Below are positions 14,747-52,628 of a stretch of 64,000 nucleotides of DNA, one piece after another. Location: the IMG/VR virus record IMGVR_UViG_3300025598_000024, positions 1 to 64,000 of that record, one strand, 5' to 3'. The notes beneath the pieces are model-generated. The model did not search any database. It saw only the letters and a list, made by a program, of their open reading frames with translations, and was not told where the DNA came from. A program made the translations under genes and the position numbers. Source of the stretch: a virus. The first letter of the stretch is position 1. Each line of letters starts with the position of its first letter.

Positions 14747-14937
14747 ACTTAGCTTACGTTCTACAGTATGATACTGGACAGGATAACTATGAGATCTCAG
14801 GTGTGTACTCGAGTCTAAAGTCAGCTATGAATGCTGTTACAGTTGAGTGGAAACAGAATGAAGAGCTGGCTCTTTGGGAAGGCTACCATCCTGAAGGTGG
14901 TATGTGGAGTATTGAAGTTTATCCAATACTAGATTAG
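14743..14937 (+). CDS. Hypothetical small protein
   Basis: 64 residues, the last plus-strand gene. Its end overlaps by 9 bases the stop of the convergent minus-strand gene, so there is no room for a separate terminator. No family is recognised. Confidence 0.65.
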   Translation: MNLAYVLQYDTGQDNYEISGVYSSLKSAMNAVTVEWKQNEELALWEGYHPEGGMWSIEVYPILD

Positions 14938-15690
14938 TGATACGTTTTCTTTATCAACTTTTACATTAGTATTGATGTGTTGAATATCTTCTGGGGTCCA
15001 CATTGACCAGTTACCTGGGCTGGTAGGATAGTTATAAAGCCCATTGTATGAGTGCCATCCAACTCGTCTGCCGAGTTCTTCATGATAGCGCTGAGCATTC
15101 TCACGCGTTCGTTGCTGTGGTCTACCCCATTTATCATCGCTGTTTTCACGAGAATAAACTTGTGAATTAATGCCTAAATTATTAGGTGCAAGATGATGTT
15201 TGATTAGTGCATGGTTCATTGCGGTAGCAGCGCCCGGGTGTATTGATGTAGCAGAATTTATAAAGGCTAGCTCTGGCCAATTTTTATTTTGACTAGCTCT
15301 TAATGAACCAACTATATTACCGCCATGCATGGCAAGAATGAACCTAGAGTTTTGTTCTTCTGGATACGAAAGCGTATATGATCCATCACGGTATGCATTT
15401 GATAGTGCTTGCGCGTTAGAGATAGTATTTGCAATAGCCGTTTCATGCGTAGCATCTTTAGGTTTAATTGTTTTTAACGTTGCTATCTGTTTTTCTAAGC
15501 TAGCATGCTTGTCAACATCTGGCTCTTTTATGCTATCCATATCATGGATCTCTATACTGCCGCCGCCTTCGTAAAAGCTATTAGTTTTACCCTGGACGCC
15601 TTCTAGTATTCCAGGGAGCTTTACTCTGCTGTTAGGTTTGTAAACAGCAATAGCATAACGCTCACTAGCGTATCTTATAGACCAGTTCAT
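14929..15690 (-). CDS. Tagged GNAT-like protein
   Basis: 253 residues. The N-terminus MNWSIRYASERYA carries the tag also seen at 17108, 20325 and 25416. The centre (about residues 115-180) has the GNAT-like order of a strand, a VGSLRA segment and an NSATSIHPGAATAMNHALIKHHL helix, suggesting an acetyltransferase fold, but the acetyl-CoA loop is not convincing. It overlaps the amidase by 4 bases. It may be a virion-associated modifying enzyme, which is inference. Confidence 0.7.
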   Translation of the reverse strand: MNWSIRYASERYAIAVYKPNSRVKLPGILEGVQGKTNSFYEGGGSIEIHDMDSIKEPDVDKHASLEKQIATLKTIKPKDATHETAIANTISNAQALSNAYRDGSYTLSYPEEQNSRFILAMHGGNIVGSLRASQNKNWPELAFINSATSIHPGAATAMNHALIKHHLAPNNLGINSQVYSRENSDDKWGRPQQRTRENAQRYHEELGRRVGWHSYNGLYNYPTSPGNWSMWTPEDIQHINTNVKVDKENVSLI

Positions 15691-17108
15691 AGTATATCTT
15701 CAAACCCTTCATAGCCAGGAGCAAGCTGTCGCCATGGGTAAGCCCGTTGAAACTTGTTAGCTATATTAATCAGCCTATTGTCCTGATAGTGCAGCGCTGT
15801 TACCTGCAAACCGAACGGCAAGCCATTAGAACACGCACCGAACGGTATGGATATTGCAGGCACACCTGTGACATTTTGCATTGACTCGTTATAGTCTTTT
15901 GCTGGTGGATTATAGCTACCATCAGCAGCGAAGCCAGGGTTTGGATTGGTTGGCGTAAGCAGCAGTCCATCGCTGCCAAGGAGATCATCAAGATTTTTAA
16001 TATACATAAACCTCTTGCGTCGAAGATCCATGTATTCTTGTAGGTCTACACCCTTACCTATAGTTAAAAAGTCTTTACCAGATTTAGTTAGTTTGTCCCA
16101 GTGCTTGTCTACCCACTGCTTGCCAAATTTAGTATACTGATCTGCTGACACAGCATTGTACCACTCAAGATCCGGATTGCCCTCTGGGAAAACATCCCGT
16201 GGCTCTATCCATATCACTTCGCGCTTCATTAGCTTACCAAATGCTTCTGCTGCCTCTTTAAACTTTTTAGCAGTCTCTGTTGGCAGCTTTCCAAATGGTG
16301 ACGTTCTTTCAGCTGCGTATATCTTACCGACACCATATTCTTTATTGTCCAAGAAGTTAACAGCGTCCAATGGCAAGCTTGCTGGGTCACCAGGAGTAGG
16401 TGTTTTAAGGATGTTATACATTAGTTGTAAATCGTCAGCAGAGTTAGCTAGAATACCATCAGTGGAGTAATCTATCCAATCTTGTGCAGGCCACCGGCCT
16501 ATCATGCCATTGGTTGGCTTCAGCCCAAGCAGCCCACAGTAACCTGCTGGTGTGCGAATAGATCCGCCACCGTCTGTACCTGTAGCTGAAAAGACCAGGC
16601 CAGCAGATAGCGCAGCAGCGCTACCACCACTACTACCACCCGGAGCTAGCTTAATATTCCAGGGGTTAGTTGTTACTCCTGTTAGATCATTGGCTGTGTA
16701 GCCATTGCAACCAAACTCGGGTAGTGTGCTTTTGCCAACAAAAATAAACCCACTAGCTCTCATCTTTGCTGGAGTAGCATCGTCTTGCTCCTCTGGCTTT
16801 GCATTCTTAAATGCAACGCTGCCCTTTTTAGTTGGCATGCCTTTAACATTCTGCAGATCTTTTATCAGTGCTGGTACACCATGGATTGCTCTAGTAGCTT
16901 GACCACTATCAAACATTTTAGCTTGTTGGAGCGCGTCATCATATGCTTCGTGTGCAATGACATTAAGATCTTTGTTATACTTTTCTATATTACTTATACT
17001 TTTTTCTACCAGCTGGGTAGATGTGACTTTGCCAGACTGTAGAGCAGTAACAGCGCGTGTCAATGGACCAGAATTTTTACTAGATGAATAGCGTTGTGAC
17101 CAGTTCAT
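15687..17108 (-). CDS. Amidase-signature hydrolase with N-terminal tag
   Basis: 473 residues, full length for the amidase-signature family. The catalytic triad is visible: Lys83 (VPALIKDLQ), cis-Ser159 (PGGSSGGSAAA) and nucleophile Ser183 (GTDGGGSIRTP). The family hydrolyses carbon-nitrogen bonds, as in GatA, fatty-acid amide hydrolase and peptide amidases. A GatA role is unlikely because GatB and GatC partners are absent. It carries the N-terminal tag MNWSQRYSSSK. A phage-borne amidase of this class is unusual; the substrate may be a host cell-envelope amide or a virion component, but this cannot be decided here. Confidence 0.88.
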   Translation of the reverse strand: MNWSQRYSSSKNSGPLTRAVTALQSGKVTSTQLVEKSISNIEKYNKDLNVIAHEAYDDALQQAKMFDSGQATRAIHGVPALIKDLQNVKGMPTKKGSVAFKNAKPEEQDDATPAKMRASGFIFVGKSTLPEFGCNGYTANDLTGVTTNPWNIKLAPGGSSGGSAAALSAGLVFSATGTDGGGSIRTPAGYCGLLGLKPTNGMIGRWPAQDWIDYSTDGILANSADDLQLMYNILKTPTPGDPASLPLDAVNFLDNKEYGVGKIYAAERTSPFGKLPTETAKKFKEAAEAFGKLMKREVIWIEPRDVFPEGNPDLEWYNAVSADQYTKFGKQWVDKHWDKLTKSGKDFLTIGKGVDLQEYMDLRRKRFMYIKNLDDLLGSDGLLLTPTNPNPGFAADGSYNPPAKDYNESMQNVTGVPAISIPFGACSNGLPFGLQVTALHYQDNRLINIANKFQRAYPWRQLAPGYEGFEDIL

Positions 17109-17416
17109 TTCTCATCATATCCTTTGATGTTCTCATCTGACCATTTAGTAGCACGCTCGGTTGTTATCTTGCCTACTAAACCAATAGGCAGAATAAACAG
17201 CCAGCCTATCCAGCCCAGGTGCATTAGCTGTACACCTGAACATGAAGCTAGTACTATACTAACCACGTCACCGATGCCATCCATGTTTCCTGCCAGCTTG
17301 TGACGGCCATTAGCTATAGCATCTGTTAGTACAGTGCCGACAATATCTTTAACGACCATGCAGGCACAGCCTAATAAACTATATAATGATGCTTGTAATA
17401 GTATGTTCCAGCTCAT
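17105..17416 (-). CDS. Small membrane protein, possible holin
   Basis: 103 residues with two or three hydrophobic segments (about 8-32, 48-65, 66-86) and a charged C-terminal tail. Size and topology suit a holin and it lies between terminase and amidase, but no lysin is adjacent. Overlaps of 4 bases on both sides show it belongs to the terminase operon. Confidence 0.6.
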   Translation of the reverse strand: MSWNILLQASLYSLLGCACMVVKDIVGTVLTDAIANGRHKLAGNMDGIGDVVSIVLASCSGVQLMHLGWIGWLFILPIGLVGKITTERATKWSDENIKGYDEK

Positions 17417-20151
17417 CGCCCACGCCCTCTGTTCATGCCACCGTAGTCTCTTTGGCTGCGTACTGCTCCGAATGTTTTTAATTTATCTCTAGAACTAAGC
17501 TGACCCCATCCGGGTACAGCGCCAGTGTGGTACCCGCCATGAGCACCCAGGTGTAGATCTGTATTCTTCAGGCGCTCGCGCATCTCTATCTTGATAAAGT
17601 TATCCTCGAGCAGAGCATCCACACACACCATCAGACAGTCACTGATATCACTGGTACGGATGGGTCCAAACTTCTGCTTGTCCACACGACCATTAATCTC
17701 CTGGAGGAACTTAAGCTCTTGTTCCAGCAAGCTGGTTCCGTTGGGGCCGTATTCATCCTTGTATGAGTGTACCCAGCCCATGCCCAGAGCACTCTTGAAC
17801 CGTTCGGCACGGCGCATGTTGCTTTCCTTGGTGAACTTGGTTTCCTTTACGGTTACCTTGTGTGGTTGCTTGAGCTGCTTGAGCCTGCGCTTGAGCCGTG
17901 GCAGGGTAACGAATGCACCGTACTGGTCAAAGCTAAACGTCTTGGTGGTACGGTATCGCGAAAGAATATCTACCAGCTCTTCTTCGATCTCTTCATAGTC
18001 TAGTTCCCCATCAGTGTAGTCATCGGGGTTCCAGACCTTCATCCAGTCAACAATAATATGGTACCACTCTTCACCATCATCAGGGTCAGCCATCTTTTCC
18101 ACATGGCAAATCATGCTGGCTGTGTTGGCACCACTCTTGCTGGGGTCACAGTGTCCATAATAAGTTATATTGAACATGCCCTCTGGTTGCATTTCTAGCA
18201 CGCGTGTCTCACCTGTGCTGTCAACGAACGGATCGAACATCCTCTCAACCATCTTGGGATTAAGATAGGCATTGGTTACTTCAGCCCACTGGCTCTTACG
18301 CTCCACCCTAAAGGTGTCAGGCTCACGCTTCTCGAGCAGCTTCATCTCGTTGTCGTACTCCTGTGGAGCACGATTGAACTTAAATCCACCGAAGGTTGCG
18401 CGTGGATCTGCCCAGTCCTCGTATGGCCCCCAGCTGGGCAGCTGTATCATCATCATGTTGGGATAGCTGGGTGTCTTATCATCCTCTAGGCTAAGTGCAG
18501 ATTCATATAGATCGTACGCCTTGCCGATTTTCGTATTATGGCTAAACATGCCAGCTGCAAGCAATGTGCTAGTAGAGGTGCCCAGAGCGACAACATCACG
18601 ATTACCAGCATCCTCTATCGACTCAACAGTAACGTACTTAGAAGTCTTATCATAAATTCTTGTGCCATAGAACTGATCGGTAAATTTAGCAAGCAATCGG
18701 CGTGGGCGAATTGATCCAAGGAACTTCATCTTTTCTGATGAACCACCATTAACAGTAATATCGATGCAGTCTCTACCCTCTTCCTTAAGAGTAGTGCTAA
18801 TATCGCATCCTCGTTCAATCATCATTTCAACTAAGTTATCCAGCACTGGACCTTTGTTCTGAGCAATTCCGAGCAGGCCATGTTTAGAATAATACCCTTC
18901 ACCGTCAAACATACCAGACAGGTATCCTGCATCATATGATTTGTCTATTTCCCATGTATCTGTATAACGGATCATGTCACCAGGCTTAAGATTCTTTGTC
19001 TTTACCCAGTTTAATTGAGAGGCATATGGTTTCTTTGTTAACCAAAGGTGTTCACCCGTGCAAACGACCTCTGGGCCATCTGTTTTTAGTTTAAGCGTTG
19101 GTGCATTAATGATAGAAGTTTCTTCAACAATTGCTTGCCGCCAGCTTCTTCCATTACCCTTGCCGCCAGGTGCGTACTCATCAAAACCAATTAATTTATC
19201 TCCGACCTTCAATGAACCAACAGGGGCCCATGTTAAATCTTCTAGAAGAACTGGTGTTTCTGGTACTAGGCAGAACGGGCTTGTCGGTATATAGATAAAC
19301 CCATCCTTGCCGAATTGGTCAAGGGCAGGAGTGATAGCACTGTATACCTGCTCACTGGTACGGCTACCGTCAGTTCCTACAAGCATGTGTGCGAACTCGT
19401 CAAACATCACACTAAAAGCAGCAGCACCACGACTGGCTTTACTGTTACTGGTCACAGCCATGTTACGGATACTAGCGATCAATCGGTTGGGTCGAATGCC
19501 ACGGCTCTCGAACGTGGCAATCCTGCGAATGTCACTGGGTGTACGCAGTGCCAGGAAGTGGTCCTTGGCGTCAGCAATATATGGCTGGAAGCATGGAGCG
19601 TCAATGATGGTGTTAGAAAGGTCAGCAAACTGATACTGTTTGGCCTGCTGGATGTTGGTGGCCACACAGAACAGGTACATGTCCTTGCTCTTGTCAATGC
19701 CGTAGTGGTACTGTGGGTCATCCAGCATGAGCAGCTGCCAGTTTATATATGCTCCCTGAATGCCACCGATGTGGCCCTTGCCACCACGACGACCAGTGAT
19801 ATTAATAACTTCTTTGAAGTGGTTGTAGCCATCTGCCTTGAGTATCTTGGCACGCTCCATGATGTCAGGGCTAATGCCAATGCATTCGCCGCCATCCTGG
19901 TAGAAGTTTTTCGTCCAGCCTTCTATAACTTCCATGTCATAGTCAGTTAGGTTATCAAGCTCCAGGTTGATGAGCTTTAGCAGGGTGCGCTGGCGTGGGA
20001 ACAGTGGCTTGCCCAAGAACTCTGTGTGCTCTGTGAACGTGACGATATCAGGTATATCTTTATCATCGCGCAGGCTCTTCTTGGCAATCTCAAAAAAATC
20101 CTGTTGCCCCTTCAGGATATTTGCGTTGCCCTTCTTGGTTACTCTTGGCAT
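17413..20151 (-). CDS. Terminase large subunit with intein
   Basis: 912 residues as encoded, 666 after removal of a 246-residue intein. Walker A-like TGRRGGKG is at 119-126 and Walker B VMFDEF has D251/E252. The coupling motif IPTSPF at about 288-293 is where the intein sits. After the intein, the RuvC-like nuclease part has HCDPSKSG, FSFDQYG and SDCLMVCVD with acidic metal ligands. The enzyme cuts concatemeric DNA and pumps it into the prohead. The N-extein lysine-rich start follows the tagged miniprotein by 3 bases. Splicing is needed to restore the ATPase-coupling motif. Confidence 0.95.
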   Translation of the reverse strand: MPRVTKKGNANILKGQQDFFEIAKKSLRDDKDIPDIVTFTEHTEFLGKPLFPRQRTLLKLINLELDNLTDYDMEVIEGWTKNFYQDGGECIGISPDIMERAKILKADGYNHFKEVINITGRRGGKGHIGGIQGAYINWQLLMLDDPQYHYGIDKSKDMYLFCVATNIQQAKQYQFADLSNTIIDAPCFQPYIADAKDHFLALRTPSDIRRIATFESRGIRPNRLIASIRNMAVTSNSKASRGAAAFSVMFDEFAHMLVGTDGSRTSEQVYSAITPALDQFGKDGFIYIPTSPFCLVPETPVLLEDLTWAPVGSLKVGDKLIGFDEYAPGGKGNGRSWRQAIVEETSIINAPTLKLKTDGPEVVCTGEHLWLTKKPYASQLNWVKTKNLKPGDMIRYTDTWEIDKSYDAGYLSGMFDGEGYYSKHGLLGIAQNKGPVLDNLVEMMIERGCDISTTLKEEGRDCIDITVNGGSSEKMKFLGSIRPRRLLAKFTDQFYGTRIYDKTSKYVTVESIEDAGNRDVVALGTSTSTLLAAGMFSHNTKIGKAYDLYESALSLEDDKTPSYPNMMMIQLPSWGPYEDWADPRATFGGFKFNRAPQEYDNEMKLLEKREPDTFRVERKSQWAEVTNAYLNPKMVERMFDPFVDSTGETRVLEMQPEGMFNITYYGHCDPSKSGANTASMICHVEKMADPDDGEEWYHIIVDWMKVWNPDDYTDGELDYEEIEEELVDILSRYRTTKTFSFDQYGAFVTLPRLKRRLKQLKQPHKVTVKETKFTKESNMRRAERFKSALGMGWVHSYKDEYGPNGTSLLEQELKFLQEINGRVDKQKFGPIRTSDISDCLMVCVDALLEDNFIKIEMRERLKNTDLHLGAHGGYHTGAVPGWGQLSSRDKLKTFGAVRSQRDYGGMNRGRGR
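18535..19272 (-). other. Intein within the terminase gene
   Basis: 246 residues, terminase residues 294-539. It begins with Cys294 (CLVPETPVL) and ends AAGMFSHN with Thr540 as the +1 residue. Block B is CTGEHLWLT and the terminal His-Asn is intact, so splicing should work. A LAGLIDADG-like motif, AGYLSGMFDGEG, lies in the middle, but only one such copy is clear and the insert is short, so homing activity may be reduced. The sequence is more AT-rich than the exteins, in keeping with a mobile origin. Confidence 0.9.
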
Positions 20152-20154
20152 AGT

Positions 20155-20325
20155 TTATCCGTGCTTGTTGGCCATCATTGCAGAGAAAGAAGCATCGGCT
20201 TTTTCTTTGCTGTCATGATGGCTCAGCACGTCACCTTCTTTGTTTAGAACAACCCACTTGTCGCCTTGTTGCTTAACGTATTGATTGGCAGTCTTTTCAG
20301 CAGCATAACGTTCATTGAAGCTCAT
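20155..20325 (-). CDS. Tagged miniprotein
   Basis: 56 residues beginning MSFNERYAAEKTANQY, the clearest copy of the N-terminal tag also found at 25416 (MNWNNRYENEKTAN). After about 15 residues it has a small beta-rich body (GDKWVVLNKEGDVLSHHDSKEKAD) like a DUF2188-type fold. It is too short for many gene callers. It overlaps the gene before by 4 bases and precedes the terminase by 3. Confidence 0.75.
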   Translation of the reverse strand: MSFNERYAAEKTANQYVKQQGDKWVVLNKEGDVLSHHDSKEKADASFSAMMANKHG

Positions 20326-20963
20326 TTCTTATCCTTTGTAGAATCAGGAAACTCCATAATTTTACGAACAGAATCAATAGCTTTTTGTATTGCTTCTCCA
20401 GCTCTTTCATGAGCATACATTTCTTCTTTTTGTTCCATAGCAGCATGCCAACCAGTTCCACCTTGCACTTCTTTGAGCAACTCAGATAAATTACCAAGAT
20501 GGCCTTCCCATTCGCTATTACTAGGCCATGCTCCAGCAGTGACAGCACTGCCTTCCTTCTTCTTGCTCTCGCTGTCCTTGTCACCGTGATCACGCATGAT
20601 ACCGTTGGCCCAGGCACGACCTGCGTCGCCACCCCATGCCAGCCAGGCTACCTTACCGGGGCTGTCGCTATCCCAGTCCTTGCCCTTCTTGTCAACAGCA
20701 TGACGAGCAAAATAGCTGTGCATCTTCTTGATAACAGCCAGACTGACTGCCTCACCATTAGCTAGTTGATGAGCACGACCACGACCTACACTGGTGAAAC
20801 CATCGCCAGCCTTGCCATCCTCAATAAGCTGTAGTGCATGGCGAGCAGCACTCTGCACACCCTTGGGTGGCTTGAATGTTTTCTCTCCGCCTTCGTCCTT
20901 CTTCTCAGCGGTACGCATGTTAACCCAGGGGTTAAACTCTTCTGCTCTAGATACTTTACGCAT
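20322..20963 (-). CDS. Conserved phage protein with GRAHQLANGE domain
   Basis: 213 residues. The segment from about residue 34 to 125 (GVQSAARHAL...GRGRAHQLANGEAVSL...PGKVAWLAWGGDAGRAWA) is a domain I recall from many actinophage and other phage genomes, often near head genes; it may be DNA- or capsid-associated. The C-terminal part is helical and charged. No enzymatic motif is visible. It is between the terminase block and the exonuclease gene. Confidence 0.78.
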   Translation of the reverse strand: MRKVSRAEEFNPWVNMRTAEKKDEGGEKTFKPPKGVQSAARHALQLIEDGKAGDGFTSVGRGRAHQLANGEAVSLAVIKKMHSYFARHAVDKKGKDWDSDSPGKVAWLAWGGDAGRAWANGIMRDHGDKDSESKKKEGSAVTAGAWPSNSEWEGHLGNLSELLKEVQGGTGWHAAMEQKEEMYAHERAGEAIQKAIDSVRKIMEFPDSTKDKK

Positions 20964-20974
20964 TGTTTTCTCCT

Positions 20975-22120
20975 TTACATACCTTGGTGCACTTTCATTA
21001 TCTCTTTAACTTTTCCAGACTTTGCTGGGTCTTCATGAGATAATGCTACTTCATTAAGATGGTTACAGAATCCACAGACTGGACCAAAACATGGGCCACC
21101 CATTGTATAATTTATGCCCAGTGCACTGGCTTCTACGCCAGACAGCTTGAACGATGTTCGCTGAGTTGCGCTTGAATCAATAATGCTCTTTATGAATGGG
21201 ATTTGCCCCTCGATGAACACTCTTCCTGCTGCAATAGAGTCATGCAATGCTCGGTGACCACCAGCTTCTATACCATAGTGATCTGCCAGTGATGATAGAG
21301 ACCTGCTGCGTGGATCTAATTCTTTTGGTTGGATAGACTCATCATGCTTGATAACATCTACCAGCCTCATGGAACCAGGGTTCCACCCTGTTATCTGCAC
21401 AGGGCTACCACTGTTCTCTCGCTCCCAGGTATTCTTTATACATTCTGTGTCGTATGTTGGGTTAGCTCCCACAAATACAAAGCCTTGCTTTTGTAAGTTA
21501 GACATGACCCGAACAATCTTGCTTATGCCTATGCCCAGTGGGACAGCAGGAGGCAGATCGATATCTTCCTGAGTTATTGCAGGCGCTATCTGTTTGTGCT
21601 TGATGTCAACGAATGGCTGCCCGTTTCTTATATATGGTGCACCAACTTCGAATCGCGTGTCAAACATCTTTTTCTTGTCACGCTTTGATGCCCACTCGTT
21701 GTATTCATCCTTATGCTTGCCTAGATCTTGCAACCTAACGCTCTGCACAGTTGGCCAGGTTTGTTCTGTTGTATCTGGCTTGATGCCATAGCGGTGCTGT
21801 GAAAGAGCGAGGTCTGTCCAGCCATGTGTTTCAAATGCTCCCAGCTCAACACTCTTGCGTGGATCTATAAGAAAGTGTTGTGACTCTGGCTCTGACAGGT
21901 TTCCGTTCCTGAAAATTGCAAGACCAAACGAGATTGGCTCTGGATCATTCAGCCCAGTTGTTTCCAGGTCGAAGCTTGCGATCATGGGCGGAACATCTGA
22001 CCATAATTTATTGGTAGACTTTTTTATGTTAGGCTCAAGGCTACTAGGATCCCAACCGATGTCAGCAGCACGCCGTGCATCCATTATTGGTTTGGATTGT
22101 TGTGATGCGTTGAAATACAT
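20975..22120 (-). CDS. DnaQ-like 3'-5' exonuclease domain protein
   Basis: 381 residues. DEDDh motifs are complete: ExoI SFDLETTGL (D51, E53), ExoII NPTYDTE (D224) and ExoIII HRALHDSIAAG (H289, D294). The C-terminal PCFGPVCGFCNHLNE has a Cys trio that could bind metal. A long insert (about 85-195) separates ExoI from ExoII. The start is MYFNASQQSK, loosely like the tag of neighbours. It lies far from the replication genes, so it may act in packaging or ejection rather than proofreading. Confidence 0.88.
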   Translation of the reverse strand: MYFNASQQSKPIMDARRAADIGWDPSSLEPNIKKSTNKLWSDVPPMIASFDLETTGLNDPEPISFGLAIFRNGNLSEPESQHFLIDPRKSVELGAFETHGWTDLALSQHRYGIKPDTTEQTWPTVQSVRLQDLGKHKDEYNEWASKRDKKKMFDTRFEVGAPYIRNGQPFVDIKHKQIAPAITQEDIDLPPAVPLGIGISKIVRVMSNLQKQGFVFVGANPTYDTECIKNTWERENSGSPVQITGWNPGSMRLVDVIKHDESIQPKELDPRSRSLSSLADHYGIEAGGHRALHDSIAAGRVFIEGQIPFIKSIIDSSATQRTSFKLSGVEASALGINYTMGGPCFGPVCGFCNHLNEVALSHEDPAKSGKVKEIMKVHQGM

Positions 22121-23376
22121 TATACTTTATGCCTATCAGGATCATATGAGTATGGGAACAAACCACTTTCAGCAACATTGATAGCTGCATCAAGCTTACG
22201 CCTGGTTGATATAAAATTAGCTACAGTGCTGGGAGATACTAGACCTTCTGATATTGGCTGCTTGCCAGGATCATAGCATGAACTAAACAGTTGTGCTGTA
22301 TAGTGATCAATCAATCTGCTTGACATTTTCTGGTAGCAGTCCAATGTGTGCAGGCCATCAGTGCTTCCACAGCTACAGTGAGGAGAACCCAGCAGCTCAT
22401 GTGGGATCATTGATGTTAAACCATTATTCTGATGAAGAAAAGCTATCTGTTTTCTTATTTCTTCTTCATCCGGATCATCAGGCACTTCAACAGTTCTACC
22501 GTATCCTCCGGATACAGCGGACACCCTGTCACCACGGAAGGTTCTCCAGCTGCCCTTGTTGCCATGTTCATCAATAGTATGAGGATCATATGCTCTTATG
22601 TATAGAGAATCATACTTTGGGTGGTGATAAATATAGGTTGGCACAATCGATCTAACACGTGGAGCGAAATCATTATTGCCACGATAAGTTATATCTAGCT
22701 GACCACCATCATTAATTATTTTATGAATGTGCCTGAACAGACCACTGCGGCTATCCCCACTAAGATCTTGTGGGTTTTCAATACCAGGTATGGTCATGAC
22801 ATTGCCAGATTTTATACGTGCTATCTCTGACTGTATCCAGTGGTGAGCACCTGGATAGTCCTTGCTATTCCAATCCTCTACTCTGTCTATTATTCCAAGC
22901 CTGTCAGATGGAGAGAAACCTGAAGAACCAATTACCCTATCGAATAATTGCGATGATTCAGGCAGTGTATCAGGCCTGGATGCCAGATGTTCATGATGGC
23001 TGGACAGGCTATCGCATATAGCATCATGGTCTTCTTGCGACAAAAGACCTGAGAGCATTGTTCTAAAGCTGGATGCATTGTTAACAGTTCTAGACTGTCT
23101 GTGATTCAACTGCGTCTGCAAAAGATCTCTGTCAAGATATGATTCAGCTTCCGGTACAGCATAGTCATAGTCACCATTGTTATTGACCAGGGCGGTTAGC
23201 AGGTGCTCCGGTGGTATACCAACGCCGTGACGCTGTGCATTAGGCTGCATGGCTTCCATGATTTCATCGTGTGAGATGTGTTTGCGCAGCTCTTTGTATA
23301 CAGAGCTATCAAACGTGCCAGGGTCTACGTCAGCAGAGCGAGCTTGTTCAATCTCTGTTGATTTATTTTCAGGCAT
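22120..23376 (-). CDS. WYL-like domain protein
   Basis: 418 residues. Residues 226-289 (LDITYRGNNDFAPRVRSIVPTYIYHH...LYIRAYDPH...RTFRGDRVSAV) have the strand order of a WYL domain, a nucleic-acid or ligand sensor found in PafBC and CRISPR or phage-defence regulators. No helix-turn-helix is evident; the N-terminal 200 residues are helical, and a CSCGST...LDC Cys cluster follows. Its gene starts on the base where the exonuclease gene ends. A virion or signalling role is open. Confidence 0.7.
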   Translation of the reverse strand: MPENKSTEIEQARSADVDPGTFDSSVYKELRKHISHDEIMEAMQPNAQRHGVGIPPEHLLTALVNNNGDYDYAVPEAESYLDRDLLQTQLNHRQSRTVNNASSFRTMLSGLLSQEDHDAICDSLSSHHEHLASRPDTLPESSQLFDRVIGSSGFSPSDRLGIIDRVEDWNSKDYPGAHHWIQSEIARIKSGNVMTIPGIENPQDLSGDSRSGLFRHIHKIINDGGQLDITYRGNNDFAPRVRSIVPTYIYHHPKYDSLYIRAYDPHTIDEHGNKGSWRTFRGDRVSAVSGGYGRTVEVPDDPDEEEIRKQIAFLHQNNGLTSMIPHELLGSPHCSCGSTDGLHTLDCYQKMSSRLIDHYTAQLFSSCYDPGKQPISEGLVSPSTVANFISTRRKLDAAINVAESGLFPYSYDPDRHKV

Positions 23377-23379
23377 GCT

Positions 23380-24444
23380 CTAGCTACCACTGTTAAACGA
23401 TGGAACAACATTAGCAGATAATGCTTTCGCAGATGGCTGTTGTATGCCAACTATCCTGCCAGCATTAACATTCCTTGATTGCATATAACCTCTGTTTAAG
23501 AAAAGATCTTCCTGCTCCGCTGGTGAAAGTTCTCTTCTGATTCTATAGGCCTGCTGAGCTACAGCTTGATCTCTTATTGCTTCGTTCCAAAGTGTTGGGA
23601 CTGCACGCAGTTCTCTATCAACAACCTCAGTACCTCTTGGTTTTTCCATCATGTTTCTTGCAAGGAAGCTATGAGGGTCAAGATGCTGTGCTCCGGGATG
23701 CGCTGCTTCAATCTCTGGGCTTGGGTGGCTGAGCAGGTAGTACGTTGTATCCTGGTAGGGTTCGGCTGATCCGGGAGTGAGATTGCGTAGTGTAACAAGA
23801 TGGCCTGGTTGAACAATGCTTTCTGTTCTGAAGGCTTCATTCTGATTAACAACGTAGCTATTATCTATTTTACTTTTTACTTCTTGCAGCTGACTTTTTA
23901 ACTGTTTGCTTTTGTCTTTAGCAATACGATAGTCTTCATCGGTAGGTTCAGAAAGAGGGTCAAGAGGATTTTGGTTCAGGTGGTTCCTCAGCATCTGCGA
24001 TACAACTTCTGATGCTTCTTGATGTTGTTTTTCTACATGTGGTAGAACATTACTCTTCAGATTCTCCAGGTGCGAAGCGGTGCAAAAGAACTTGCGTTCA
24101 TTGGCTCGGGTTCTTGGGGAATATGCCTCACCGTATGTGTTAGGAGATGCAGATGCACGCGCTGCTGCTGCAAGATCCCTGGACGACCAGCCTCCGAATG
24201 TTTTGCTAGGTCTGGTCTGTATGTTTATATTTTTGCTTGGCAGTGGTGGATCAAATTCTGGTTCATAATCTTGATATGCCAATGGCAACAGGGAGTGTTG
24301 TCTGGGAACATCTTCTCCCATGTATCGACTGCGCAGTACCCACTGACCTCCAGTAGTATCAGTAAAAACAGGCTCATTGTCACTGTTCACTGTCATATTG
24401 CTGACAGGAGCTGCTGTTTTGCTATTAAAACGTGGGATGCGCAT
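23380..24444 (-). CDS. Hypothetical protein with tag-like start
   Basis: 354 residues. The ATG at 24444 follows AGGGAGA and avoids overlap with the previous gene; a longer upstream frame is rejected. The start MRIPRFNSKTAAP resembles the shared tag (R-aromatic-x-S-K-T-A). The body is soluble, with a long charged helix at about 150-190. No domain is recognised. Confidence 0.75.
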   Translation of the reverse strand: MRIPRFNSKTAAPVSNMTVNSDNEPVFTDTTGGQWVLRSRYMGEDVPRQHSLLPLAYQDYEPEFDPPLPSKNINIQTRPSKTFGGWSSRDLAAAARASASPNTYGEAYSPRTRANERKFFCTASHLENLKSNVLPHVEKQHQEASEVVSQMLRNHLNQNPLDPLSEPTDEDYRIAKDKSKQLKSQLQEVKSKIDNSYVVNQNEAFRTESIVQPGHLVTLRNLTPGSAEPYQDTTYYLLSHPSPEIEAAHPGAQHLDPHSFLARNMMEKPRGTEVVDRELRAVPTLWNEAIRDQAVAQQAYRIRRELSPAEQEDLFLNRGYMQSRNVNAGRIVGIQQPSAKALSANVVPSFNSGS

Positions 24445-24445
24445 G

Positions 24446-24925
24446 CTATCTCCCTGGTATGATAAGTTTCTTTTGAGTGCCCATCTGTGCACGCTTCATG
24501 TCGTAGTATCTGTCAGCAACACCCTTGCCGATCTCGTAACGGTTCTGCTCTGGGTTGTAGTCGTTGCCGCTCAGACGCCCAACGATTGTGATGGTTGGTG
24601 GTTGCTGCTGTTGCATGATGCCTGGTAGCACCCAGTCAACAACAACCTGCAGGCCAATCTTTTCGAACAGCTCATCGGCCTCACCCTTCAGGCTCACCAG
24701 GTTTTCGTGGCTGGCCTTGCGATAGCCATACTTGTTCTGTAGCTGCTCGAGAACCTTCCAGGCACCCATGATCTCTGATTCCATAAGCTCAAGAGGTTCT
24801 TCTTTACCCAGGCGCTCTTCCTCAGCACGTTGCTCTGCCAGGTAGGCATCGATCTGTGCCTGCTGGAATGGCGTGTGCTTTACATCTTCTGGCCTGATGC
24901 CTGGGATTTCATTGGAGTTGGTCAT
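24446..24925 (-). CDS. Hypothetical charged helical protein
   Basis: 159 residues, acidic N-terminal helices and a beta segment (PPTITIVGRLSGNDYNP). It overlaps the gene before by 4 bases and ends just before the next ATG. The absence of the tag sets it apart from neighbours. No function is assigned. Confidence 0.75.
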   Translation of the reverse strand: MTNSNEIPGIRPEDVKHTPFQQAQIDAYLAEQRAEEERLGKEEPLELMESEIMGAWKVLEQLQNKYGYRKASHENLVSLKGEADELFEKIGLQVVVDWVLPGIMQQQQPPTITIVGRLSGNDYNPEQNRYEIGKGVADRYYDMKRAQMGTQKKLIIPGR

Positions 24926-25416
24926 TTGTTTTTATTTCTTTCGATAGAGTCCGCGACGAGTTTTTCTCTCAATTCAGGATACCCCATATCTGTGCGGTTA
25001 ACAACCTTATTCACCGCATGCCCAAGACCAGCTCTTGCAACTCCAGTAGCAGTGCCTGGCTCATAGCCAATAAATTCTTTTGCTTTATTAATAAGCCCTC
25101 TGGCTCCAAGCCCAGCAGCTGCTAGGCCTACTGCATCTGCGCCAGCACCAATGAGACCTTGAGCGTCGTGAGAATGAGTGTTAACATAAGTTGATAGAGT
25201 AGGATCATAATCGATTGACGGTACCTGATTGGCTAGATCAACTCCTTGCTGATAGCTTGTTCCAGGGTCCCAACGATCTTGAAATGGGTGAGCCATGCCG
25301 CGCAGTACATAATGTGCTACGTCCTTTACTGCATCCACACCAGAATTAAGCACGTGTTGTACTGCCTGACCAATGTTTGCTGTCTTTTCATTTTCGTATC
25401 TGTTATTCCAGTTCAT
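24922..25416 (-). CDS. Tagged protein with Gly/Ala-rich segment
   Basis: 164 residues. The start MNWNNRYENEKTANIGQAV is a clear copy of the shared tag. Residues about 88-112 (GLIGAGADAVGLAAAGLGAR) form a Gly/Ala-rich hydrophobic stretch that could insert in a membrane or pack against capsid. No known fold is recognised. The tag and the membrane-active-looking segment would suit an ejected internal virion protein, which is inference. Confidence 0.75.
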   Translation of the reverse strand: MNWNNRYENEKTANIGQAVQHVLNSGVDAVKDVAHYVLRGMAHPFQDRWDPGTSYQQGVDLANQVPSIDYDPTLSTYVNTHSHDAQGLIGAGADAVGLAAAGLGARGLINKAKEFIGYEPGTATGVARAGLGHAVNKVVNRTDMGYPELREKLVADSIERNKNK

Positions 25417-25424
25417 GATATAAC

Positions 25425-27857
25425 TTATTTCTTTCTAGTCCGATTCGGTTTATTTTTGCCTTTAGCCTGTTGCTTTTCTGTTGGTGTTATTGCCCTTACC
25501 TCTGCATCTGTTGCGCCCAGCAGATCTCGTGGCCCACCGTCTGTAACCATGCCACCAGTACCAATATAGTTACCATTGATATCTGTGTCACCCATGCCTT
25601 CGTTGTATCTGGCTGCAGCTGCGCCCAACTCACGGATGAGACCGGTTCTATCGTCCCTGTACTTTAAAGCATCAATATTTTCCAGGGCTTCATCATATTT
25701 TGCCTGTATCATTGGCCTGTCTTCTGCCTTTAACAGACGAGATCTCCTGGACAGTACGGCAGTAATATTACCTTCACTGTCGAACTCGTGGCCGTCATGC
25801 TCGATGCATTCATGCTTGGTAAGAGGTGAGAAAGAATCACCCTGGGGTACAAGAGGAGTTGTGAAAGCTCTGGATACAACTGACGTTGGCTCACCATCTG
25901 GGCTTTGTTCAGCTACCAGTTCACCGTGGCATGCAACGCTGTCTCTTTGTGACTTGCTGATCGGAGTGCGAATCATTTCATCAATATCAAACCCAGCGCC
26001 CCTCTTTAATATATAAGCATCTCTTCTATTTAATACTATTGGCTGATCTTCCAGAGGCTGTGTTCGAGTGCTGTTCTCTCGAGTTGCATAGTTCTTAGGG
26101 TAAGGAACCCTCATGAAGTGAGTCTGAGGGATCGGTTCACCCTTGGCATTCAGCCGTGTGCGCTGGTGAAATTTTATAAGCTCTTTACCAGTATCGATTG
26201 TGACAATCTCACCAGGATCAATCTTGGACAGGTCAATCAAACGATAGTTATCTTCTACTGTTGGATCGGTACGAGCCTTATCTCTCAGACCTTTAAGAGC
26301 ACGTTCTGTAGCTGCAGGGTTATCCCAGCTGCCAGCAACATGCCAGCCCTCAGAACTTTTATCCGATACAGTCACTCTGGGGAATTCAAGAGCGTTTCTT
26401 TTCTTGCCTCTGAGGCCTGAGTTACCTCTCTTGCATAGGATAGTGCCAGACAATGGCTTGATTTTCTCACGCTTGATCATTCTATCAGCGACGTAACCCA
26501 GACCACTGGCACGAAGCTGATCCTGGTAGTCATACAGCTTGCTGAGATCTACATCAATTGGCTTGTACTCATCTGTATGAACATCGTATTGCCTATCAGG
26601 AATATTAAACTGTGATGCAACATGACTCCATGCCTGTGCAATAGCATCGTCTTGAAAAGTGTCAACAAAGCTTTTGCCACGCAGCTGGATGATTGAACCA
26701 TCTGGCATGCCATTAACACGCTTGTTGTATTCATTGTGCCAGGCCTGTGACTTACGGTTACCACTACCTGGTTCTGGCTCTTCTAGTACTGTTCTAAAGC
26801 CAGCAATTCTAGATTGTTCAGGATCCTCGTGAGCTTCACCGTACATGTGGCCGCTATCACGCCACTCATCCAGCTGTTGAACTGCTCTTTGGATAAAATT
26901 ATGAGCGTTAGAGGGTGGTCTGTAACCAAACCTGTGTCCTTCTTCTGCATCAGACCATTCCTTTAACGCTGCATGCATCTTTTCAGGATCACCGCCAGTT
27001 ATTCTAGAAACAGAATCGTAGTAGCCATCCCATAGTCTTTGCATTTCGTTTTCATGCGAAATACAGGTAGCGCAGTGCGCTTGTGGTTCTTCCTCAACGT
27101 TTTTAACAACCTTAGTATTATCACTCAATGTCTGAAGCGCTGATTGATTGGCTTGCTGTTGGCTGGTGCTATAGTTCTCACCAACTCTTGATGGGTGAAT
27201 GCCCAGCTCTGGTAGAGTTATTCCAGCAGACTTTCTGTGAACATCCAGCATGGTCATGATGTCTCCACCATGTTGTTCTGCCATTTGCTCTAGCATAGAT
27301 AGGCCAGCTGAACGATGCAAGAACGGGTTGGTTTCTGATACTGGATTTCCAGAATCACCTGGCATGCTGGGAGCTGTTCCCAGCTTCATTATAGTATTCA
27401 CCAAAGCATGATGGAAACTCCTGCGGGCTTCACTTGTTTCGCCTGTTGACTTTAGAGTGCCTCTACTGGCAACGATGGTGCGAGTATCGTCATCATGGTA
27501 TTCAGGACCAAGCTCATTAATTTTTTTAGCAATAACGTCTGCACACCCGCACTGCTCATCATGTGGTAGATAAGCTGTTTCAAGTGGTATCCTGGTGGGT
27601 TGTTGGGTTAATGAACCATGAGTACAGGCGCGACCATGGTCTTCAGCACTGTGCCCGCACCAGGTGCAGTTGCTTAGGCCATCAATACCATAAAAATCTG
27701 CAACGCCATTCATAGCGTCAATCTGCTCTCGAGATGCATCACAGTTGCATGCATCGCGATCTACTACCTTTACTGGCTCAGCTGTTCTGAACTGCTCTGG
27801 GAATGCAGTTTCACCGCTAGCTACCTTGGGCTGCTTGAATATATCACTGAGTTTCAT
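25425..27857 (-). CDS. Large protein of unknown function with Cys clusters
   Basis: 810 residues. An N-terminal Cys-rich region (CNCDASREQ...NCTWCGHSAEDHGRAC, about residues 37-83) probably binds zinc; another pair, CATC, lies near residue 265. The C-terminal third has an ETVTIDTG-like strand region and ends very basic (KGKNKPNRTRKK). I do not recognise it. Its size and its place in the tagged-protein operon suggest a virion or genome-associated protein, but this is not shown. Confidence 0.75.
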   Translation of the reverse strand: MKLSDIFKQPKVASGETAFPEQFRTAEPVKVVDRDACNCDASREQIDAMNGVADFYGIDGLSNCTWCGHSAEDHGRACTHGSLTQQPTRIPLETAYLPHDEQCGCADVIAKKINELGPEYHDDDTRTIVASRGTLKSTGETSEARRSFHHALVNTIMKLGTAPSMPGDSGNPVSETNPFLHRSAGLSMLEQMAEQHGGDIMTMLDVHRKSAGITLPELGIHPSRVGENYSTSQQQANQSALQTLSDNTKVVKNVEEEPQAHCATCISHENEMQRLWDGYYDSVSRITGGDPEKMHAALKEWSDAEEGHRFGYRPPSNAHNFIQRAVQQLDEWRDSGHMYGEAHEDPEQSRIAGFRTVLEEPEPGSGNRKSQAWHNEYNKRVNGMPDGSIIQLRGKSFVDTFQDDAIAQAWSHVASQFNIPDRQYDVHTDEYKPIDVDLSKLYDYQDQLRASGLGYVADRMIKREKIKPLSGTILCKRGNSGLRGKKRNALEFPRVTVSDKSSEGWHVAGSWDNPAATERALKGLRDKARTDPTVEDNYRLIDLSKIDPGEIVTIDTGKELIKFHQRTRLNAKGEPIPQTHFMRVPYPKNYATRENSTRTQPLEDQPIVLNRRDAYILKRGAGFDIDEMIRTPISKSQRDSVACHGELVAEQSPDGEPTSVVSRAFTTPLVPQGDSFSPLTKHECIEHDGHEFDSEGNITAVLSRRSRLLKAEDRPMIQAKYDEALENIDALKYRDDRTGLIRELGAAAARYNEGMGDTDINGNYIGTGGMVTDGGPRDLLGATDAEVRAITPTEKQQAKGKNKPNRTRKK

Positions 27858-27865
27858 AGCGTTAT

Positions 27866-28960
27866 CTACCGCATTCCTAGTGTGTTCTTACGCTTTGGTT
27901 TGCCTGTGCCAGTTGGAACTTCTGGGAATACTATGCTGTCACGGGTCCAACCCATGGCTGACGTGTCAATGAACTTGCTCTCTCTTACAGCTGCAGGCAC
28001 ACTCTTTAATCTGGAGTGTGTTGCAACCATGATAGGGTCCAGGTGCAAAACCCCTCCCGGCAGGCCAAGCCTTCTAGCATCTTGCCAGTCCATACCAGCA
28101 GAATTTCTCAGAACCTTTGAAGTAAGTTGTAGAAAAGAACTGGCATTATTATGGCCCATACCATGATCGGTAAAGAACGGATGGGCCTTTGTATCTTCGC
28201 TGCTTCCCATTTCCAGCAGGTGTAAACCACCTATATGGCAAGCAGTAATTAAGTTACGAACATGTACTGGTGCTGCTGATGCTACGTGCGGTGTTCGGCG
28301 GCTTGGCAGCAGATGTTCCAGTGAGTTTCCTATTATTCTTCCGACAGAATGGCATACGGCACAGCCGCTATCTTCTACTCCTGAACAGATACCATCATGG
28401 CATGTAGCAAAGAACGGTGAATAGTCTTCTGTTCGTTGATTTTCTCCTCTATGCCAGCCGTGCATGTGGCTGAGTTGTGTCTGGTGCAGATCATTTATTG
28501 CTTTAAGAGTTGGGGTACCAGTTCTGGAAAAGTCTTCTCGTAGCAGCTCATGATAGCTTGGGAATTTATCAGTGATATCTCTTGCGATTCCATCGGCACC
28601 AGTTATTCGATATTTATGCTCGTTTGGGATCATCAAACATCCATTAGGCTGTAGTCCTACGGCTTCATATATCGAGTACAAAGGCATTGCAAGTTGACTG
28701 GTTGCAACGCTTAAGCGTGGTGAGTTGGTCAGGTTAAGCCTGCCTTGATCGTATGAGCTATCAAGTGCTGGGAAGGTTCCCTGCTTGAACTTTCTCATGT
28801 CATCAGCATTCTGAGCTGTGTTAAGAAAAAGATTGATAAGGTGTGGCTTTTCATAGCTTTCATCCGGCAAGGATGCAGCGTTTTCTAGCATCTCGCTAGA
28901 GTCATTAAACAGCTTTTCAATATGACTGTCAGTAAATTTACTGGAGCTAAATCTATTCAT
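27866..28960 (-). CDS. Hypothetical protein with tag-like start
   Basis: 364 residues. The ATG at 28960 after GGAGAAGATAGCG is preferred to a longer frame overlapping the previous gene by 180 bases. It starts MNRFSSSKFTD, similar to the RYSSSK core of the tag. A CHDGICSG...CAVCHSVGR cluster (Cys/His) and a second His-rich region could bind metal; the CxxCH motif is heme-like but isolated. The tail is basic. The function is unknown. Confidence 0.75.
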   Translation of the reverse strand: MNRFSSSKFTDSHIEKLFNDSSEMLENAASLPDESYEKPHLINLFLNTAQNADDMRKFKQGTFPALDSSYDQGRLNLTNSPRLSVATSQLAMPLYSIYEAVGLQPNGCLMIPNEHKYRITGADGIARDITDKFPSYHELLREDFSRTGTPTLKAINDLHQTQLSHMHGWHRGENQRTEDYSPFFATCHDGICSGVEDSGCAVCHSVGRIIGNSLEHLLPSRRTPHVASAAPVHVRNLITACHIGGLHLLEMGSSEDTKAHPFFTDHGMGHNNASSFLQLTSKVLRNSAGMDWQDARRLGLPGGVLHLDPIMVATHSRLKSVPAAVRESKFIDTSAMGWTRDSIVFPEVPTGTGKPKRKNTLGMR

Positions 28961-31739: not shown

Positions 31740-31768
31740 AGTATATCATATTTATATATCCATTACAA
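31740..31768 (-). promoter_or_regulatory. Candidate promoter for the terminase-side operon
   Basis: On the minus strand TTGTAA (31763-31768), a 17-base AT-rich spacer and TATACT (31740-31745). It overlaps the end of the HNH gene and points to the gene starting at 31706. Confidence 0.5.
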
Positions 31769-32411
31769 ATCCATGATGTTGGCATGGAGGATTTTCTAAA
31801 TAATCCGCGGCTTTTCGTAATATATTAGCATCTTCTTTAGCACCACCGAGCACTCTATGATTACATCTTGAGCATAATAAGCCCCGTATTTGCCCTGTAG
31901 CATGATTGTGGTCTACGGCTAGTCTTTTTTTCTTTGGTATCATTGAACAAATCGCGCACGCTCCACCTTGCTCATCAAGCATCATATTGTAGTCGTCAGC
32001 TGTTATGCCAAAAACTCTTTTTAATCTGTTCGAATGCCCCTCAACAGATCTGCACTCTTTACAGTACCCAGATGGCTTGCCTTTCCTGTAATGAAATTTT
32101 GATACTGGCAAATATTCCTGGCATTTAGTGCAAAAATATTTTCCTGGTGGCATTTCCACTGACAAACGAGGATCAGATTTTTTTCTTCTTGTTTCATTAG
32201 AGCTATCCATTGTGGCTCTACGTATATCTTCTCTGCATTTTAAACAATATTTACTTTTGCTAGATGATGATTTTTCACCACAGGAATAGCATTTGTCGTT
32301 ACCAAAAGGCCTATGTCCCCTAATGTATTCAGCATTACGATTAGCAGGACTACCGCCACACCCACATGCACAAATGTTTTTAAAACCCTTAGCCTTTTGT
32401 GGTGTTGTCAT
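31752..32411 (-). CDS. Endonuclease VII-like HNH nuclease
   Basis: 219 residues. Several Cys pairs (CACGCGG, CYSCGE, CLKC, CTKC, CKEC) are followed by the endonuclease VII domain: FGITADDYNMMLDEQGGACAIC, then VDHNHATGQIRGLLCSRCN, with the His-Asn-His-type core. Such genes are often free-standing homing nucleases in phages. It is more AT-rich than its neighbours and overlaps the previous gene by 23 bases. A Holliday-junction resolvase role, as in T4 gp49, is possible but the extra Cys-rich front suggests homing. Confidence 0.85.
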   Translation of the reverse strand: MTTPQKAKGFKNICACGCGGSPANRNAEYIRGHRPFGNDKCYSCGEKSSSSKSKYCLKCREDIRRATMDSSNETRRKKSDPRLSVEMPPGKYFCTKCQEYLPVSKFHYRKGKPSGYCKECRSVEGHSNRLKRVFGITADDYNMMLDEQGGACAICSMIPKKKRLAVDHNHATGQIRGLLCSRCNHRVLGGAKEDANILRKAADYLENPPCQHHGFVMDI

Positions 32412-33159
32412 TCTCGCTCCATCGTTCGCAGATGCTCTTGGCAGGGCATACAGTGAACTCTTCAGTGGTCGGACCATTGCAGCAGCTCTTCAGCTCTGAC
32501 GGATCATTGTTACGGATTGCTACCCGTACTCTGCTCCACTTATCATATAACTTATTTAGTTCATCAGGATCAGGCTGTACTTCTATCGCACGCAGCCTGT
32601 GAGGATAACTCTTCTCTACAAACAGCAGAGCCATGCGCTCGGGTGCATCCGGGTGAACGTCCTGGTAAACGCGCAGCTGCATGCTGTAGGTGTGGCTGGC
32701 TTCCAGTGGCAGCTTGTTGCAGGTCTTGATATCAACCAGGAATCTCTCACCATTAGGCATGGTCAGTTCCAGGATATCAATAGCTCCGGCAATCATCCGC
32801 TCTTCGTCACGGATGCGCACCTCTACACTGTCCTCACTGGTGAACCCCAGGTGGATAAGCATGCTCTGCATCATGCTGTGCAGTGCGCTGCCAATCTGGA
32901 AGGTCATCTGCAGGGTGGGGCTGATGCGTTCTTCCTTGTAGAAAGCCCTGAGCTCCGGGTGAAACTTATAGTACAGGTGCATCTCACCCTTGGTGATGTC
33001 TGTGCTGGGGTGATACATGTTATCGAACTTGCGTTCTTTGTTGTACACCCGGATAGGGTATTCTTCTGGCCAGTCGGCATGGATCAATGCCTCTTCGATG
33101 TATGGGGTGATGATCTCATTGCGCTGGTAGCTGGCCAGTGTTCTCTCAAGAAATGTCAT
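32389..33159 (-). CDS. PD-(D/E)XK exonuclease, RecB/Cas4-like
   Basis: 256 residues from the ATG at 33159. GAIDILELTMPNGERFLVDIKT supplies D128 and D143-x-K145 of the PD-(D/E)XK core. A C-terminal Cys set (CCN...CPAKSIC) recalls the iron-sulphur cluster of Cas4 and AddB-type nucleases, though no N-terminal partner Cys is seen. It likely processes DNA ends in recombination with the RecA further upstream. Confidence 0.82.
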   Translation of the reverse strand: MTFLERTLASYQRNEIITPYIEEALIHADWPEEYPIRVYNKERKFDNMYHPSTDITKGEMHLYYKFHPELRAFYKEERISPTLQMTFQIGSALHSMMQSMLIHLGFTSEDSVEVRIRDEERMIAGAIDILELTMPNGERFLVDIKTCNKLPLEASHTYSMQLRVYQDVHPDAPERMALLFVEKSYPHRLRAIEVQPDPDELNKLYDKWSRVRVAIRNNDPSELKSCCNGPTTEEFTVCPAKSICERWSENDNTTKG

Positions 33160-50437: not shown

Positions 50438-50465
50438 GTTGCTCCTTACTTGTTGTTAATGCTGG

Positions 50466-50552
50466 CGGAAGCAGTGGGATTCGAACCCACGGAGCGCTTG
50501 CACACTCAACGGTTTAGCAAACCGTCCCATTAGGCCACTCAGGCATGCTTCC
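50466..50552 (-). tRNA. tRNA-Ser (GCT)
   Basis: An 87-base class II tRNA with a 7-pair acceptor (GGAAGCA/TGCTTCC), anticodon loop with GCT, a long variable arm and a normal TTCGAAT T-loop. No CCA is encoded. It reads AGC/AGU. Confidence 0.93.
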
Positions 50553-50557
50553 AGACT

Positions 50558-50947: not shown

Positions 50948-50965
50948 ACTAATCCTTTTTACTGC

Positions 50966-51034
50966 AGTGGACATTGAGGGACTCGAACCCCCGACCCTCT
51001 GGATGTAAGCCAGATGCTCTAACCAACTGAGCTA
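50966..51034. repeat. Direct repeat, copy 1
   Basis: 69 bases identical to 52544-52612. They cover the tRNA-Val from the D-arm to its 3' end. Together the two copies flank a 1.5-kb GC-rich block. Confidence 0.9.
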
Positions 51035-51041
51035 CCAAGGC
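50968..51041 (-). pseudogene. Chimeric tRNA-Val (TAC) pseudogene
   Basis: The body from the D-arm on is identical to the intact tRNA-Val at 52546-52619, including anticodon TAC, but the 5' acceptor arm is GCCTTGG, which does not pair with the 3' arm AATGTCC. The 5' arm belongs to another tRNA. It looks like the product of recombination between two tRNA genes. Confidence 0.8.
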
Positions 51042-51051
51042 CTATAGTTCT

Positions 51052-51080: not shown

Positions 51081-51154
51081 CTCTTAGCAAGAGTAGAGAT
51101 TGACCACTATGCCATTGACCTTAAGGATTTCCACGGCCTTGTTTGATGAAGCCG

Positions 51155-52524: not shown

Positions 52525-52543
52525 GTTTTCCTTTCTTACTTGG

Positions 52544-52619: not shown

Positions 52620-52628
52620 TAAAAATTG

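Follow-up and report, generated by a model that had tools for sequence, protein, structure and literature searches.

The window analysed here corresponds to positions 1-64000 of a virus contig that is 105,159 bases long (IMG/VR record IMGVR_UViG_3300025598_000024), of which the other 41 kb were read as well. On its minus strand, four genes around that for the terminase large subunit encode proteins with unrelated bodies that begin with a common short peptide, referred to below as the tag. A preliminary description of this DNA had placed these N-termini at 15690, 17108, 20325 and 25416; all four are present on the minus strand in good open reading frames (ORFs), and the starts assigned by our own, simple gene caller agree with them. 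The first protein (14929..15690, minus strand, 253 residues) is GNAT-like and begins MNWSIRYASE (15661..15690). All 50 PDB matches listed for its AlphaFold2 (AF2) model (predicted TM score, pTM, 0.63) are annotated as acetyltransferases or are similar GNAT-fold proteins (probability 0.87-1.00, but with E-values of only about 1e-3 to 1e-2); residues 3-10 are modeled as helical, at very low confidence. The second (15687..17108, minus strand, 473 residues) is an enzyme of the amidase-signature (AS) family (Pfam Amidase, E 1.1e-70) in which the aligned motifs GGSSGGSAAA and GTDGGGSIRTPA agree with solved AS enzymes, and it begins MNWSQRYSSSK (17076..17108). The third, a 56-residue miniprotein (20155..20325, minus strand) starting with MSFNERYAAEKTAN (20284..20325), has a phrog_3684-like body (PHROG 3684, E 1.1e-7); a search of a phage collection for its relatives returned none, and related contigs, introduced below, hold an internal copy of its tag, VEFNERYASEKTANQ (L007), and the copy MKFNERYANEKTANQ (G008). 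The fourth is a Gly/Ala-rich protein of 164 residues (24922..25416, minus strand, from its ORF and gene calling) that starts with MNWNNRYENEKTAN (25375..25416) and matched no family in Pfam and PHROG searches; a body resembling it in G016 (24634) carries the internal tag SFDERYAIEKEAG.

Within the same block lie genes with looser or other starts. The preliminary description had listed two looser versions. That at 24444 (MRIPRFNSKTAA, 24409..24444, minus strand, core F-N-S-K-T-A) fits the core [WF][NS]x[RK][YT]A, which recurs in relatives as FNSKTA, FNSKYA, FNAKYA and FNSRYA and falls under a more general pattern enriched in the clade (see below); the other, at 28960 (MNRFSSSKF), does not match the core and is not supported. 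A DnaQ-like exonuclease (20975..22120, minus strand; Pfam RNase_T, E 8.4e-8) has the degenerate start MYFNASQQ, and its relatives begin MFNSRYASA, MYNSRYAN or MFNAKYAN, i.e., with the tag core minus the asparagine at position 2. Forms such as FNSKTA and FNSRYA probably belong to the tag as well. The adjacent gene (20322..20963, minus strand) encodes a phrog_2859 body (PHROG 2859, E 2e-31) and starts with MRKVSRAEEFNPWVNMRTA; in relatives (L007 9638, L008 8540, L012 8934) the same body has a start of the tag type, M(M)SFNERYAKE. Its start in the window exemplifies a second common N-terminus, tag B (MRKVSRAEE...LNxRTA), which is found on different bodies in a syntenic place (window 20322-20963, minus strand; L007 9289; L008 near 9900; G018 97402). 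The untagged anchor of the operon, the terminase large subunit (17413..20151, minus strand), is 39% identical to Bixzunavirus terminases and has 912 residues, versus 663 in L007, where it is without insertion. The in-frame insertion of about 250 residues, which starts with CLVPETPVLLEDL and ends near AAGMFSHN, reads as an intein. The cargo block also holds a WYL-like protein (22120-23376, minus strand) whose Pfam match, at E 3.5e-4, falls slightly below the cut-off; a relative (G009 1780) begins MGWINSLFTKTAS.

Relatives were recruited from IMG/VR with the 56-residue protein and with terminase alignments as queries, and the comparison set comprised 14 contigs fetched entire and portions of two others, most of them fragments, in which genes were called. 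The source phages are uncultured lake phages, represented by freshwater contigs of one series and related to actinophages/Bxz1. We counted called proteins with [WF]xxR[YF] within residues 2-11 and compared the counts with shuffled controls. The contig of the window has four such proteins (0.19 expected; at most 2 in 300 shuffles), and 17 related contigs have 68 among 1,964 (2.0 expected; at most 5 in 200 shuffles), a strong excess that the shuffles exclude as chance. A general core pattern, [WF][NSDT]x[RK][YT][AS], searched in the first 28 residues, occurs one to nine times per tagged genome (expectation at most 0.11), and was absent both from G014, a sister contig (terminase 65%), and from three distant genomes read whole; in distant Bixzunavirus-like contigs the tag-coding pattern is not above control. 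When all of IMG/VR was scanned for ATGAA[CT]TGG..RYA, 66 stretches were returned, most of which are tagged genes on contigs from that one freshwater series, often with several to a contig; the remaining ones are short and probably chance ORFs. Among the genomes compared, the tag is restricted to one phage clade. Grouped by BLAST, 71 tag copies fall on 38 clusters of bodies; with the IMG/VR scan added there are 107 copies on 53 clusters, a few chance matches among them. The occurrence of one tag on unrelated bodies is thus borne out on a far larger scale than originally described, with at least 38 body families. A limited search of the open-access literature turned up no description of the tag, which supports only weakly the view that it has not been described.

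We next asked which residues of the tag are conserved. In the percentages that follow each body cluster has equal weight. Because the search pattern demanded W/F at position 3, R at 6 and Y/F at 7, and constrained positions 2 and 4, independent evidence of conservation comes from position 8 onward only. Asn is present at position 2 in 73% and Asn/Ser at position 4 in 78%; beyond the pattern, Ala occupies position 8 in 74%, Asp/Glu position 10 in 50% (5-25% at neighboring positions) and Lys position 11 in 27%. The refined consensus is M-[NSD]-[WF]-[NS]-x-R-Y-A-x-[DE]; simplified to one letter per position, the tag is a start of roughly ten residues, MNWNxRYAxE. Of the consensus first put forward, M-[NS]-[WF]-[NS]-x-R-Y-x3-K, the core was retained, and the "x3-K" part is not strict. 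A-x-E is found in 24 of the 71 copies and A-x-[DE] in 34.

The codons behind these residues vary freely. Arg6 is encoded by five codons (CGT 30, AGA 27, CGC 9, AGG 3, CGA 2), Tyr7 by TAC (35) and TAT (33) and Asn2 by AAC (23) and AAT (23), and the W/F and N/S exchanges are conservative. Conservation at the nucleotide level limited to start codons was not what we found, as synonymous codons vary and internal copies, described below, have no start codon. Judging from these codons, selection acts at the level of the peptide, and the freedom of the codons excludes an element acting as DNA or RNA, as well as recent copying as a full account. These data bear on the proposal that the tag merely results from repeated duplication of 5' gene ends or from a translation-initiation element and that the peptide itself is functionless. 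Three copies in the window have nine bases, ATGAACTGG, in common, and in a tagged gene of one relative (L093 11984-12316, minus strand; G013 51984) a run of 17 residues is the same as in the C-terminal portion of the window's terminase (WGQLSSRDKLKTFGAVR), which is a vestige of recombination. The spread of the tag must have involved duplication and recombination; yet synonymous sites are near saturation while the residues hold, copies without a start codon are kept inside proteins and a GNAT-like pair is still tagged at 30% identity. We regard duplicated 5' ends or an initiation element as very improbable as an explanation of the tag and, given the codon variation and the internal copies, reject them as its sole cause.

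Comparison of tagged proteins with their homologs indicates that the tag moves independently of the body. The sole cellular relative of the amidase that was found, in an actinomycete metagenome-assembled genome (37% identity over 470 residues), begins MTTGELAALAD, which aligns from residue 12 of the window amidase; since the cellular enzyme begins where the tag ends, the tag is an 11-residue addition to a captured enzyme. An actinomycete origin is probable for this amidase, which lies in a phage late gene block, and the copy in G013 is identical to it in 469 of 473 residues. The GNAT-like protein of the window and its homolog L100:1887-2675 are 30% identical overall and both retain MNWS[IL]RYA; a search of IMG/VR for further homologs gave only this already known one. 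In G017_31228 and G010_977 the bodies are 63% identical over 303 residues, and the starts, MSTWKLRYASELEG and MPFIEDMWSKKTAST, retain the core with different flanks. The miniprotein body is tagged in the window, L023, L035 and G008, has an internal tag in L007 and carries tag B (MRKISRAQDYITPLNLKTA) in L008. Loss of the tag from conserved bodies, which the preliminary description had named as refuting its reading, was seen as an exception, in bodies with another or a decayed N-terminus; for the most part the comparison favors the tag. In L011 (9872-9997; G003 62801-62926) a 41-residue ORF, MNFNERYAKEDGKKKEASFDERYVNDDSDWRNDYFNLDSDW, holds little beyond two tags and a common tail, and looks as if its cargo had been deleted. 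This tail, D.xDWRN[DE]Y..LD[AS]DW, closes several tagged proteins with the miniprotein body (L007 10234, G003 62926, G010 104842, G017 58762, G018 98469).

The placement at the N-terminus that had first been described holds for most copies; about ten lie inside the protein or some way behind its first residue. The internal copies (e.g., VEFNERYASEK, ASFNERYASEQ, ANWNERYASEN, KWSERYAIAN), mostly without Met, lie at junctions between domains that are encoded separately elsewhere. Such positions would suit a peptide that acts mainly as a site for the prohead protease or another protease, or as a linker, separating or trimming proteins without targeting them, and the N-termini of the clade show an enrichment of [RK][YT]A and of A-x-[DE]. 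The strongest conservation, however, is in the aromatic/Asn block ahead of a possible cut, no cut residue is invariant (A-x-E included), and trimming alone leaves unexplained why unrelated cytosolic enzymes gained the peptide at their N-termini; we consider this explanation improbable. The internal copies also bear on the idea, raised in the preliminary description, of a chaperone or degradation signal that governs folding or lifetime. The tag is short and N-terminal, and according to the work cited as reference 29 of PMC10052503 proteins can be directed to GroEL by the N-terminus of the head protein of T4. That copies are retained internally argues against an N-degron, and a receptor common to hosts in general is hard to square with a tag confined to a single phage clade; such a signal seems to us a very slight prospect.

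Taken together, on sequence evidence, the tag is a shared module under peptide-level conservation that occurs on at least 38 unrelated bodies, is swapped between bodies, has internal copies and lies on the strand of the head genes. The recognized bodies include, besides the AS enzyme and the GNAT-like fold, a SET domain (E 4.2e-8), a weak cupin, ParB-like domains (weak in Pfam; PHROG 2579), zinc-ribbon proteins and miniproteins, and inspection by eye shows a zinc-protease motif, HELGH, in one protein. Pfam and PHROGs gave no family for most other tagged bodies. A by-eye likeness of L209:587 to ADP-ribosyltransferases was dropped, as PHROGs assign it to "ParB C-terminal domain". This set of bodies might fit a motif that recruits enzymes to, and tethers them at, another phage or host complex (replication, transcription, a phage compartment or the terminase). 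Short peptides with aromatic, Arg and Tyr residues that also work internally are typical docking motifs, the tagged bodies include several nucleic-acid or zinc-ribbon proteins, the exonuclease has a variant tag and half of the tagged genes flank the terminase. Against recruitment of this kind, though not decisively, tag-like starts are present on proteins of the portal/core block, and other phages have the phrog_2859 body as a domain of head proteins; we think it unlikely, while keeping it in view.

The tagged genes keep to the terminase and head strand in 66 of 67 cases, versus 83% for all genes; the lone exception (G005 87708, MNWSTRYDDS, opposite strand) was rejected as a coincidental match whose homologs are without the motif. 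About half of the tagged genes begin within 5 kb of the terminase start. Beyond the window, the contig encodes a major capsid protein (MCP; contig 94309-95319; PHROG 2522, E 2.5e-108), a head maturation protease (contig 98099-98719; PHROG 18299, E 4.8e-25) and a portal protein of 1,127 residues (contig 99760-103143, minus strand). A homolog of the protease in a Pseudomonas phage is annotated as head maturation protease. The AF2 model of the protease (pTM 0.65, too weak) gave no PDB fold match in Foldseek, the T4 gp21 fold included, and since the structural model matched no fold the family assignment rests on the PHROG profiles and the annotation. Large proteins encoded immediately ahead of the portal have tag-like starts (FNSKYA, FNAKYA, FNSKTA). 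The gene between the protease and the MCP begins MSRFDNEMSRYADN or MSRFDNELTKTAEN, and MSRFDNELIKQAEN in the contig of the window; in the untagged sister G014 the corresponding gene has a different start. On the contig of the window, genes between the protease and the MCP occupy 95887-97329 and 97326-98045. A gene for a protein of 239-247 residues beside that for the protease, present in those tagged contigs that were compared and not detected in G014, is a candidate for the receptor of the tag. According to annotations, the phrog_2859 domain sits within the capsid maturation protease of DSL-LC01 and the major capsid protein of S-CBS1. An [RK][YTF]A motif at the N-termini of the MCP and the protease was not accepted as a link to the tag, as it is also present in tagless distant phages and may be coincidence.

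Several further elements were noted. The portal protein has 785 residues in G018, and the extra part of the longer form matches helicase/primase PHROGs, which suggests a second intein or a similar insertion. Upstream of the portal, L095 (9432-13121, plus strand) encodes a protein of 1,229 residues with the start MYNSAYS and a GreA/GreB N-terminal domain (Pfam E 2.1e-6). In the window, nine tRNA genes form a cluster at 50463-55211 (minus strand), and an ORF at 31752-32477 (minus strand) has its Cys and His residues arranged, by eye, as is typical for proteins like HNH endonuclease VII.

By analogy with known systems, the tag is probably a portable head-targeting signal, comparable to the capsid-targeting sequence (CTS) of T4 or to the signal of P1 DarB, that marks cargo for the phage head; we hold this with moderate confidence. 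During late expression, the tag would dock its cargo on the prohead (at the core, the interior of the shell or the portal side) before DNA packaging, and the cargo would be enclosed in the capsid and probably delivered together with the DNA. Some copies would probably be trimmed by the head maturation protease of the phage, and Ala8-x-[DE]10 resembles prohead protease sites of other phages. We infer prohead binding, encapsidation, ejection and cleavage alike. Of the original suggestion of a T4-like address on unrelated cargo, the behavior as a module stands, through the codons, the amidase, the GNAT-like pair and the swaps, and a destination in the head, in keeping with the strand and the encoded protease, is the best-supported reading.

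A number of observations weigh against a head destination. Half of the body families have no acidic residue at position 10, and hence no cleavage site is common to all; A-x-E and [RK][YT]A both vary among the copies and were rejected as such a site. About 30% of the tagged genes lie 15-25 kb downstream of the terminase. The MCP, on inspection, has no obvious tag or long propeptide. None of the cargo functions establishes a role in the head, most bodies being without a recognized family, and the internal copies may be relics of gene fusions. The sister contig G014 is without cargo as well as without tag and therefore does not separate the two, and the argument from strand is modest because 83% of all genes lie on the same one.

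In its widest form, the head-targeting reading describes a clade-specific code for cargo loading, in which a peptide of 7-10 residues, at the N-terminus or within polyproteins, would load dozens of exchangeable proteins, be processed by the prohead protease and give a large, fast-evolving set of injected proteins. This wider proposal we put forward tentatively, and a code of this kind, if real, would possibly be one not described before. If the tag does load the head, it reads out the packaged cargo from the genome, so that the injected proteins of uncultured phages become predictable; the strategy of the T4 CTS would also operate in phages related to Bxz1 with a far larger set of cargo, including amidase, acetyltransferase-like, SET, ParB-like and metalloprotease-like proteins, and a short portable peptide would be at hand for placing proteins in a phage head. 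Whatever its destination, a single short peptide under selection at the protein level, on dozens of unrelated proteins within one clade, is unusual and demands a receptor.

The nearest systems by descent are Bixzunavirus and its distant uncultured relatives, to which the tag phages are related in terminase (about 39%), head protease (about 47%) and MCP (64-67%, in the closest distant contigs); in contrast to the tag phages, N-terminal tags are not enriched in the three distant genomes of this type that were read whole. In SPN3US, a phiKZ-like phage, many proteins are packaged and the prohead protease cuts after A-X-E (PMC10052503), which resembles Ala8-x-[DE]10 of the tag; in contrast to the tag, SPN3US has long propeptides, and descriptions of them do not mention a single short peptide common to unrelated enzymes; A-x-E is present in just 24 of 71 tags. 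For P1, 30 N-terminal residues of DarB are enough to bring a reporter protein to the capsid (PMC9024508). There too the signal is N-terminal and belongs to the cargo of a myophage, but it spans about 30 residues on one protein, whereas the tag has a core of 7-10 residues on dozens, and the two are likened by description, not by sequence.

The closest parallel is with T4, in which the ten N-terminal residues of the CTS are sufficient, with residues 4 and 7 controlling targeting and residues 8 and 10 processing, and an Asp at position 10 stops processing and not targeting (PMC9026906). The internal proteins of T-even phages are described as highly diverse defense proteins of which only the CTS is conserved (PMC3012670). 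Like the tag, the CTS of IPI, IPII, IPIII and Alt is an N-terminal peptide of about ten residues on unrelated, fast-changing proteins (PMC9026906; PMC3012670), the tag's aromatics (positions 3 and 7), Ala (position 8) and acidic residue (position 10) form a parallel geometry, and the tag phages carry a gene assigned, by profile and annotation, to a head maturation protease. The differences are that the sequence of the tag is another one, that it occurs on dozens of cargo families, against only a few for the CTS, and has internal copies at domain junctions, and that the tag phages, for which packaging is inferred, are related to Bxz1 and not to T4. As the tag, with Ala8 in 74% of body families, does not have the L/I-x-E site that T4 has at residues 8-10, its relation to the CTS is one of functional analogy and not of membership.

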